In this document: piece after piece, positions 18-48,140 of the stretch | How positions within the stretch are numbered: position 1 is the first letter of the stretch | How the letters are laid out: the number at the start of each line of letters is the position of its first letter | Source: an uncultured Clostridia bacterium | GTDB lineage: Bacteria > Bacillota > Clostridia > Christensenellales > Borkfalkiaceae | Length of the DNA stretch: 64,000 nt | NCBI GenBank assembly: GCA_947175485.1 | Contig: CAMWMZ010000003.1 | Span: forward strand, 1-64,000 | Direction: 5' to 3' | The notes under the pieces: model-generated | What the model was told of the DNA's origin: nothing | The model's database searches: none | Seen by the model: the letters and a program-made list of their open reading frames with translations, nothing else | Program-made: the position numbers and the translations under genes

Positions 18-1475
18 TTATTTATAGGCGGGGTCTTCCGACGGGGGAAGAGGCGCGGTTATCTGTTCTCCGCGGGAGATTACGGTTGTGTTGCCCTTTT
101 TATCGAACGTGACGGAAACGCACTTTGTATAGGGCGCGGGGGCGGAGTTTTCATCGAGGGTGAAGCTTGCGCCGTATCTTCTTAAAATTTCAAACAAGGT
201 CATAAGCCCGACGCCGCTGCCGCCTTCCGCGTTGCGGGTGGTGATTTTTCTTTTGCCTAAATTTGCGACCACCTTTTTATCGAAGGGCGCGCCGTTATCG
301 TAAACCTCTATGCGGGGCGAGCCGTCTTCCGCAAAGGCGAATGACAGCGCGACTTTGCCGTTTTGGGTTTTGCCTGCGGAAATCAAAGCGTTTTCCGCCA
401 TGTCGCAAATTACGGTGTTGAGGTCGGTTTGTTCCGGTATGCTTGCGAAAAGCAGAGGGAAGGCTCCGTCTTTGGCGGTGACGGTGCATTCTTCTTTTTG
501 CTTTACCGCTTTGGAATAAATGAAGTGCAAAACCGCATCTACGGAAATAACACCCGTTTTGGGGAGGTTATCGGAGAGGTTGCTGTATTCGTTTACCAGC
601 GCGCCGTGCTGTGAGGAAAATTCTTCAAGCTGGGCTTTGAGGCTGGCAAGCTCGGTTTTATAATCCGACTTGGCGATTAACGCGTCTACCGCGGAGACCA
701 TTGCGGGGATAAGCTTGTTATCGCGGTGGATTATTTTTGCAAGCTCCGCGTTGTTTTTGAGGAGCTGTTGCTTTTCTTCTTCGTACGCCTGTAAGCGGCT
801 TTCAAGTATTTTCGTATTTTGCTTGATTATAATTTGTTGGTAGTTGACGCGTTCGTGTTTGCGCCACCAAAATATAAGACCCAAACCGCAGACGACAAGG
901 AAAATGAGGATAAGCTGTATCGTGGTCTGGTCGTTTTCCCCCATGTAAAAAAGAGATAACAAAACGATGCTTACAATACTTATCAAAAGCAGGAAATCAT
1001 AACTGCCCTCGTTTTTGTGCGGAGATAAACCGCCCTTGAAACGCTTGATTTGAAAAACGATTATAATTGCAATAATTTGTAAGATATCTATTGTTATTTG
1101 CGCGGCTAAGTATCTTGTTGCTTCGTTGTTGGTAATTTGGAAAATAATAAAATCGAGCGGTGCGGAAAGAAGCAAGGCGATTATATAAATAAAAATGGAA
1201 ATACCGAAGCTTATAATGCTTGTAGCCAAAGTGCCGAACGGGTTTTTGCGGTAGCGGATTAAATTGTAGACATAAACCAACAAAAAGATGCAAAGAGGTA
1301 TAAGTATCCGCATACTTTGCGTGGCATAATGAACTCCGGTAGCAAAAAGCGCGGAGGCGGGGACGGAAAATAAATCCCAAGGACTTAATTTATAGTTGTT
1401 GAGCCTTATAAAAGCATAAAAAGAGCTTAAAAAGAATACCGAAAATTTAATTATTGAAAGTATCAAATCGATCAT
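18..1475 (-). CDS. Membrane sensor histidine kinase, GHKL/HATPase_c_5 type (AgrC-like architecture)
   Basis: Multiple N-terminal hydrophobic segments, coiled coil, then GHKL ATPase motifs (CDMAENALISA, EVYDNGAPF, GGSGVGLMTL). Longest ORF runs to 1574, but Met34 (ATG at 1473-1475) is the more likely start because upstream DNA is a 10-bp repeat array. Confidence 0.85.
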   Translation of the reverse strand: MIDLILSIIKFSVFFLSSFYAFIRLNNYKLSPWDLFSVPASALFATGVHYATQSMRILIPLCIFLLVYVYNLIRYRKNPFGTLATSIISFGISIFIYIIALLLSAPLDFIIFQITNNEATRYLAAQITIDILQIIAIIIVFQIKRFKGGLSPHKNEGSYDFLLLISIVSIVLLSLFYMGENDQTTIQLILIFLVVCGLGLIFWWRKHERVNYQQIIIKQNTKILESRLQAYEEEKQQLLKNNAELAKIIHRDNKLIPAMVSAVDALIAKSDYKTELASLKAQLEEFSSQHGALVNEYSNLSDNLPKTGVISVDAVLHFIYSKAVKQKEECTVTAKDGAFPLLFASIPEQTDLNTVICDMAENALISAGKTQNGKVALSFAFAEDGSPRIEVYDNGAPFDKKVVANLGKRKITTRNAEGGSGVGLMTLFEILRRYGASFTLDENSAPAPYTKCVSVTFDKKGNTTVISRGEQITAPLPPSEDPAYK

Positions 1476-1478
1476 AAG

Positions 1479-1595
1479 CAATAAAATCCAACAAAAAGCA
1501 ATAAAATGCGACAAAAAACTACATATTTCCAAATTTAACAAGGAAATACAACATAATATAACATAAAACAACAAAAAACCACAACAAAAGACAAC
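1479..1595. promoter_or_regulatory. 10-bp-phased array of CNACA (TGTNG on minus strand) motifs, about 12 consecutive positions
   Basis: Motif positions 1479,1489,1499,1509,1519,1529,1539,1549,1559,1569,1579,1589. ACA falls at the same phase in 8 of 12 decamers; the rest are ATA, AAA or AGG. Confidence 0.8.
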
Positions 1596-1655
1596 ATATG
1601 CGCAAAGCCTTACTCCTTATAATTTTTTAGATTATATAGAAAAGGAGGTGTACAT

Positions 1656-1755: not shown

Positions 1756-2541
1756 TCAAGAGTTGTTAGCGACCTTTTGTGCATAAAAATATATGAATTC
1801 GGTAACGGTGGGAATACCCTTATCGGAAACTATTTTCGCGGTGTAGTGAGTGCCGAGTTCTTTTACGTCCATAGCGTTCCAGGCGCGGGCGATACAGTTT
1901 TGCATAGCCCGTTCAACGCTGTGTTCGGATTTGCCGTATTTGTTGCCGATTACGTTGCAGAGGTGGGGCACGGGGCCTTCCATAACCGCAAGAATGGAAT
2001 CTACAAGGTATTTATAGCCTACCGCTTTGGGGCTGAGACCGACGAGGTTCAGCTCGTTGCAGATGGCGCGTTTAATGCGCTTGACGGTTTGAGCCTGCGC
2101 GGAGGTTTTGGACTTTTCCAACTGTTCGGGAGAAGTGCCCGAGATGACCGATTTGGTGATTTTAAGGAAATCGAGCACCGCCTTAGGGGAGTAGCCCGCC
2201 TGATTTTTGGTCATGATAAAGTCGGCGCCGAGTTCGCGGGCGAGGTTGTGAGTGACCGCGCTTATGTTGTTGGTTGTGACCAAAACAAAAGGCCGGTAAA
2301 AACCACCGACCGTTTTTAGCTGTTGGAGAAATTCAAATCCGTCGCCCTGACCCTGATGTAATTCTAAGTCTAAAATTACGGCGTCGGGACGGGAATTGCG
2401 GACAATCTGGATTGCTTCAGCGGAACTATCGGTTGAACCTATGAGGTCGAAATCAAGGGAATTGCTTTCGATTTCTTTTAGCATATTCTCGCGGTCTAAC
2501 GGGTCGTCTTCAACGAGAAGTATTTCTAATTTTTTATCCAT
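1756..2541 (-). CDS. Response regulator: REC domain plus Spo0A C-terminal-like DNA-binding domain
   Basis: REC motifs (VEDDP, ILDLELHQG, VTTNN); C-terminal KGYKYL/HSVERAMQNCIARAWN/FIYFYAQKV resembles the Spo0A effector domain. ATG at 2541; the ORF-track TTG at 2553 is less likely. Confidence 0.85.
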   Translation of the reverse strand: MDKKLEILLVEDDPLDRENMLKEIESNSLDFDLIGSTDSSAEAIQIVRNSRPDAVILDLELHQGQGDGFEFLQQLKTVGGFYRPFVLVTTNNISAVTHNLARELGADFIMTKNQAGYSPKAVLDFLKITKSVISGTSPEQLEKSKTSAQAQTVKRIKRAICNELNLVGLSPKAVGYKYLVDSILAVMEGPVPHLCNVIGNKYGKSEHSVERAMQNCIARAWNAMDVKELGTHYTAKIVSDKGIPTVTEFIYFYAQKVANNS

Positions 2542-2547
2542 CGTTTT

Positions 2548-2626
2548 AAACAATAATCCACAAAAAGTAACATTTTTCTACATATTACCACAAAAACCAA
2601 CAAAAAGCAACATTTAATACCCCACA
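2548..2626. promoter_or_regulatory. 10-bp-phased array of NNACA motifs upstream of the response regulator
   Basis: ACA trinucleotides at exactly 10-bp intervals, motif starts 2548,2558,2568,2578,2588,2598,2608. Confidence 0.8.
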
Positions 2627-47754: not shown

Positions 47755-48140
47755 AAATATCTTGCTTTACGAACAATGAGTATTGAGGAATTTATAAAAA
47801 TACTTGCCGTGTAATAAAAAGGCGCTGACCTTGCTTTACAGTGATTGGATTTTGTGTTAGCGTTAAAATGCTTGCTCTATTGCAAATGAATTTGCGTTTA
47901 ATGTAAAAAATACTTAATGTGCTTTAAATGAGTTTTATGCAGAAAGTAAAAAATTACTTGTAATCCCGCAATTGTTTTGCGTATGAAGTAAAAAATTGCT
48001 TGTTATTCCGCAATTGATTTTGCGTAGGAAGTAAAAATTTGCTTGTTATTCCGCAATTGTTTTGCGTAGGAAACAAAAATTGCTTGTCGTACCGCAAGTA
48101 ATTTTTTGCGGGAGCAGAAAATTACTTGACTACGCCGAAT
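47755..48140. repeat. Tandem degenerate repeat array, period 41-44 bp
   Basis: CTTG/CTTA anchors at 47761,47803,47830,47871,47913,47957,47999,48042,48083,48125; best units at 47941-48114 also share CGCAA-N-TTGCG inverted repeats. Confidence 0.85.

Follow-up and report, generated by a model that had tools for sequence, protein, structure and literature searches.

A putative 10-bp-phased operator beside a Spo0A-like response regulator in a kinase, regulator and short-peptide module of gut Clostridia

A row of short DNA boxes repeated every 10 bp, located between a sensor kinase gene and the gene of a Spo0A-like response regulator, is proposed to act as an operator for that regulator, composed of head-to-tail (T/C)GTTG boxes placed one per 10 bp. 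We place the probability of this sequence-based reading at about 0.84. The array was identified in a 64-kb stretch of DNA (hereafter the window), and the original prediction, in which it may serve the adjacent regulator of Spo0A-C type as a cooperative landing strip, gains support from the phasing seen in orthologues, the intergenic position of the array and the Spo0A_C domain of the regulator. The boxes belong to a module of kinase, regulator and tiny Trp-rich peptide that is present in many gut Clostridia and is probably undescribed; no description of it was found in open-licence papers.

Phased arrays and the genes around them

Array 1 (1481-1595, minus strand) consists of YGTTG-type boxes phased at 10 bp between the kinase start and the candidate peptide promoter. 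Written in rows of ten from 1481, it reads ATA ACA ATA ACA ACA AAA AGG ACA ACA ACA ACA ACA at the row starts, exactly as originally listed, and an exact in-phase ACA (TGT on the minus strand) is found in 8 of the 12 rows. The exceptions are two ATA rows, corresponding to an ATTG variant box also present in relatives, and two rows (AAA and AGG) that form breaks at 1531-1550. The predicted phasing was therefore upheld, while the count of about 12 consecutive copies has to be revised to eight exact copies, two variants and two breaks. In 4000 dinucleotide shuffles of 1475-1600, the mean number of in-phase ACA at period 10 was 2.9, and eight or more were never reached; periods 9 and 11 gave ordinary values of 3 and 2. 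An origin of the array by chance or as a simple AT-rich repeat was ruled out by these shuffles together with the pitch-9 and pitch-11 controls.

Within the window, more than four in-phase ACA occur in array 1 and in one other place, a second array overlooked by the original prediction, which had described a single one. Array 2 (2550-2612, minus strand) comprises seven in-phase TGT boxes, a number reached by 0 of 4000 shuffles, distributed across the promoter and leader of the regulator gene directly upstream of its start at 2541. A candidate regulator -10 element, TAATAT (2582-2587, minus strand), is located 5 bp after a box (TGTGG-TAATAT, 2592-2582), in the register conserved in the family, and the boxes extend over and downstream of this element as well as upstream of it. 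Scanning the whole 1.6-Mb host genome for four TGT at pitch 10 returned four places, namely arrays 1 and 2, C2:6637-6699 and C14:28103-28145, and the same search at pitch 11 returned none in this genome. In the other congeners, four TGT at pitch 10 or 11 gave scattered matches only, well below one per genome. Elsewhere in the window, a tandem repeat with 42/85-bp units (AAGTAAAAAATTGCTTGTTATTCCGCAATTGTTTTGCGTAGG) is present at 47891-48087.

The regulator (1756-2541, minus strand) carries a receiver domain (PF00072, 1e-12) followed by a Spo0A_C domain (PF08769, 3e-17), which agrees with the predicted output type. It scored 83.7 bits against the Spo0A equivalog profile TIGR02875, below the cut-off of 200, and Spo0A proper is encoded in the host as a separate protein (C1:32015-32728; L059:3980-4747) with the canonical helix VERAIRHAIEVAW and a Spo0A_C score of 134 bits, compared with 65 in the regulator. 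Judged by these profile scores, the regulator is a Spo0A paralogue distinct from the Spo0A of the genome. Its phospho-acceptor Asp is present in 58 of 58 regulators.

The kinase (18-1475, minus strand) is a multi-TM sensor kinase with an HATPase_c match above cut-off. Its ATG at 1475 (MIDLILSIIK) lacks a Shine-Dalgarno sequence, as had been noted, and represents the true start instead of position 1574: alignments to the Coproplasma orthologues, and to many from wider groups, start with residue 1, which corresponds to 1475, and array 1 is consequently intergenic. About six to seven TM segments are followed by a helical linker containing the phospho-acceptor His and then by the ATPase; the His of the motif IHRDNKLIPAM and the Asn of the ATPase N-box are each conserved in 54 of 54 kinases. 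A multi-TM sensor, a conserved phospho-His and a GHKL ATPase are the features of GHKL/HPK10-like kinases, with the reservation that the GHKL profile PF14501 scored above cut-off in the L119 kinase and at 17.3 against a cut-off of 22 in the window kinase. Given their adjacency and intact phosphorylation residues, kinase and regulator presumably form a two-component pair. Foldseek searches with models of both proteins recovered generic receiver and kinase domains only and were uninformative on the sensor. In loci L154, L178, L186, L189 and L198, two tandem kinase-like genes (or pieces of them) follow the regulator.

A putative kinase -10 element, TATTAT (1553-1558, minus strand), lies inside array 1, 5 bp after a box (TGTTA-TATTAT, 1563-1553). 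The same kinase-promoter register was observed in loci L109 and L110, with TGTGT-TATAAT and TGTGA-TATAAT. In these two and related Coproplasma loci, the TATAAT of the kinase promoter precedes the ATG by exactly 6 nt, so that the kinase mRNAs may be leaderless.

Between regulator and kinase, on the plus strand, a tiny aromatic peptide ORF, MFKAFWSWFLTLLLI, was identified at 1656-1703, preceded by the Shine-Dalgarno sequence AAGGAGG (1642-1648), which is conserved in orthologues. The plus-strand TATAAT at 1618-1623, a candidate -10 element for this peptide, is indeed unaccompanied by a -35 hexamer, and the edge of array 1 falls at the -35 position. A GC-rich hairpin with flanking A/T tracts (1719-1747), similar to one at the corresponding position in orthologues, separates peptide and regulator genes as a shared bidirectional terminator.

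Conservation of boxes and peptide, and candidate targets

The wider set comprised 80 regulator-family loci from named genomes of Lachnospiraceae, Oscillospiraceae, Christensenellaceae and other Clostridia. Orthologous loci have retained the 10-bp phasing, and (T/C)GTTG boxes at this exact pitch were observed upstream of the regulator both within the genus and across Clostridia. Upstream DNA was sufficient in 78 of these 80 loci. In these, GTTG pairs in the 150 bp before the regulator were most numerous at a spacing of 10 bp (60 pairs), followed by 20 bp (30) and 30 bp (6), and all other spacings up to 32 bp gave 0-4. Within 250 bp upstream, YGTTG pairs were counted 58 times at pitch 10 and 0, 0, 0 and 2 times at pitches 8, 9, 11 and 12, respectively. 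After dereplication to one locus per 65% identity cluster (n=50), 22 of 50 loci contained a YGTTG pair at pitch 10, whereas no other pitch between 7 and 14 gave more than two; reverse-strand pairs at pitch 10 numbered zero in the same 50 loci, and the strict pair is absent from about half of them. Furthermore, in 17 of 25 dereplicated loci, the -10 hexamer has an offset from the boxes of 5 (mod 10) (p=5e-12). This shared phase is accounted for by a protein that binds in step with RNA polymerase, and not by bending or chance. A strict three-box pattern search of the genus and order gave few matches, mostly scattered and chance-like, indicating that long arrays are unusual and that the boxes are degenerate.

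Between the two array positions, that of array 2, at the regulator's own promoter, is better conserved across Clostridia. The kinase-side array is long in the host only, and is short, weak or degenerate in most relatives. Kinase promoters from 58 wider loci contained three GTTG pairs at pitch 10, and 13 pairs with a relaxed motif, against about one expected. In the kinase promoters of a distant Coproplasma clade, autocorrelation was clear at lag 20 and equivocal at lag 10, and because of the latter a full kinase-side array is not claimed for this clade.

The family box can be described as (T/C)GTTG followed mostly by G or C and then by an A/T spacer, where the search motif itself fixes GTTG and the aligned promoters agree. 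It is most often TGTTG with a mixed position 6, and so departs from the TGTCGAA core, although boxes with C at position 4 are present in some relatives (L166, L121). In the 0A box TGTCGAA, the bases contacted by Spo0A are G2, C4 and G5 (PMC3485338). The contacted G2 and G5 are conserved in the family box and T replaces C at position 4. In the reading helix of the regulator, VER is kept and AIRHAIE is changed to AMQNAIN; the invariance of this helix is partly a product of selection because the loci were found by a peptide pattern derived from it. Two congeners for which a search at E<=1e-30 returned no regulator orthologue, G103 and G027, have canonical TGTCGAA boxes at pitch 10, so that the pitch may be general to Spo0A_C proteins.

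The hidden peptide of the original prediction proved to be a recurrent feature. All 15 Coproplasma loci (the kinase is seen in 14, and one ends at a contig edge) contain, on the opposite strand in the regulator-kinase gap, a 15-19 aa ORF with a purine-rich Shine-Dalgarno sequence, followed by a hairpin common to the regulator gene. Examples besides that of the window are MWRSFWSWFRGFFFYL and MFWSYLKAVWSWYRTLLFY. For the ORFs of L105 and L106, the ribosome site is of GGGGG type; the script filter missed it, but it can be read directly from the sequence. In the wider set, fixed criteria identified an aromatic short ORF in 32 of 58 regulator-kinase gaps, 30 of them on the strand opposite regulator and kinase, and relaxed criteria identified it in yet more loci. 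This corresponds to 32 ORFs in 12.9 kb of gaps, whereas the flanking DNA, 437 kb in total, holds 6, an enrichment of about 180-fold by density. Clade-specific versions such as MWERLWRIICDLAAAR and MSWFWKWLQDFF were also observed. Among cultured relatives, Bacterium 1XD21-13 (L183) has both the boxes and a peptide ORF, and Flavonifractor sp. An306 (L132) has the regulator together with its boxes. Regulator and kinase were the only recurrent neighbours in the 80 wider loci. An ABC exporter (membrane protein plus ATPase; e.g., L141:6511-8226) is encoded near the module in 10 of the 80, possibly as exporter, target or immunity function, and no dedicated exporter or protease common to all 80 was found. 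Additionally, AgrB (PF04647) had no match in the host genome.

The two other places in the host genome with in-phase boxes represent candidate targets outside the module. At C2:6637-6699 (L057:4138-4200), seven boxes precede an operon encoding a small membrane protein and an SPFH-domain (flotillin-like) protein, divergent from a gene for a BspA-type leucine-rich-repeat lipoprotein; a strong sigma-A-like promoter is located closer to the operon than the boxes. At C14:28103-28145 (L058:4104-4146), the boxes precede a gene that matches DUF1828 weakly and lies just downstream of a PLD/cardiolipin-synthase-like gene; they are followed by an in-register -10 element (TGTGT-TACAAT) of the same form as in the window promoters. 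The boxes could permit regulon prediction from sequence, which in the host would include the SPFH operon and the gene downstream of the cardiolipin-synthase-like gene. An envelope role of the module, based on the SPFH and cardiolipin-synthase-like neighbours, is a guess. In another genome that carries the regulator, boxes at L115:4719 (G005:C5:6686-6718) stand in register with a -10 element (TGTTG-TATATT) near a small membrane protein gene, possibly marking a further target of the module.

Proposed mechanism and alternative readings

In the proposed mechanism, the multi-TM kinase would sense a signal and phosphorylate the regulator, which would then bind cooperatively along one face of the DNA with one Spo0A_C domain per box. 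In the Spo0A-C/DNA structure 1LQ1, two domains reportedly lie head-to-tail on tandem boxes, and by analogy a row of Spo0A_C domains arranged in this manner would give such an array. The bound row would keep a constant phase relative to the -10 element and substitute for the -35 hexamer. Through array 2 the regulator would control its own promoter, and in this species array 1 would also place the kinase and the peptide encoded on the opposite strand under its control, with long arrays producing a steep response. Activation is the more likely sign of regulation where boxes sit upstream of the -10 element; boxes over and downstream of the -10 in the window make repression or self-limiting control possible. 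The peptide is probably the ligand sensed by the kinase, a weaker proposal than that of the operator.

Several alternative readings were weighed against an operator for the adjacent regulator. The boxes may be bound by the true Spo0A of the host, as a variant 0A-box array, which would make the module a Spo0A target instead of a self-regulated circuit. This reading is improbable in our judgement: a Spo0A proper is encoded in the host, G2 and G5 are shared with the 0A box, and the TGTCGAA boxes of G103 and G027 indicate that the pitch suits Spo0A too, but the family box has T at the position where Spo0A contacts C, and in loci across Clostridia the array is found at the promoter of the paralogue itself, as is usual for autoregulation. 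Moreover, a Spo0A-like match is found in most congeners, yet the pitch-10 array in a minority only. It is very doubtful that phased A/T tracts merely bend the promoter DNA around a core read by no dedicated protein. The mostly A/T spacers and the near-helical pitch would suit bending; the YGTTG core, however, occurs in a single orientation, the tracts alternate between TTTT and AAAA, and bending alone would require neither GTTG nor its register with the -10 element. It is hardly credible that the array is coding sequence of a kinase whose start lies at 1574. Although the frame is open from TTG 1574, the repeats follow the box motif and not codons, their period of 10 is not a multiple of 3, and the homology from ATG 1475 leaves the array outside the conserved protein, contrary to a translated array.

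Another alternative concerns the ligand step only. The peptide may be a membrane-active type-I-like toxin or an intramembrane kinase modulator (like MgrB or SafA) instead of a secreted pheromone, and we give this somewhat less than an even chance. Peptides of 12-20 aa that are hydrophobic, aromatic and leaderless would fit such a role, as would the lack of AgrB in the host genome and of a conserved adjoining exporter, save for the ABC exporter mentioned above. The diversity of the peptides between clades, the multi-TM kinase that repeatedly accompanies them and a location of their genes as in signal-receptor systems favour a ligand instead. The broadest interpretation, which in our estimate falls just short of even odds, is a widespread cell-to-cell signalling family of gut Clostridia in which unprocessed Trp-rich peptides of 12-20 aa would act through the kinase on a Spo0A-derived regulator that polymerises head-to-tail on 10-bp-phased boxes and switches its own circuit.

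Signalling in gut Clostridia is poorly understood, and this locus combines a sensor and a regulator with a candidate ligand and a readable putative operator, a combination that recurs in many families. The locus also illustrates how a sporulation regulator was turned into a two-component system of its own, reading another box. The strict 10-bp pitch of the operator amounts to a physical claim, in which one DNA-binding domain per turn would form a continuous protein row.

Comparison with known systems

The module resembles Spo0A and its 0A box in the combination of REC and Spo0A_C domains, in box positions T1, G2, T3 and G5, in the VER of the helix and in the presence of multiple boxes upstream of promoters. 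Autoregulation of spo0A is also known (PMC12090719). The module differs in that its regulator is a separate paralogue with T4 for C4 in the box and AMQNAIN for AIRHAIE in the helix, in its long and strict 10-bp arrays locked to the -10 element, and in its kinase encoded next door, whereas Spo0A uses orphan kinases or a phosphorelay.

As in agr/HPK10 systems (AgrC-AgrA, ComD-ComE), the genes for a response regulator and a small peptide adjoin that of a multi-TM kinase whose ATPase is of the GHKL type. In contrast to these systems, the regulator output is Spo0A_C and not LytTR, the peptide of 12-20 aa has no leader or propeptide, AgrB is absent from the host genome, and the peptide gene is located on the opposite strand between kinase and regulator. 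The small-protein kinase modulators MgrB and SafA, and SHP-Rgg, likewise pair a regulator with a hydrophobic or aromatic peptide of very small size; the module differs from these in having no RRNPP/Rgg receptor and in encoding its peptide between kinase and regulator across Clostridia.
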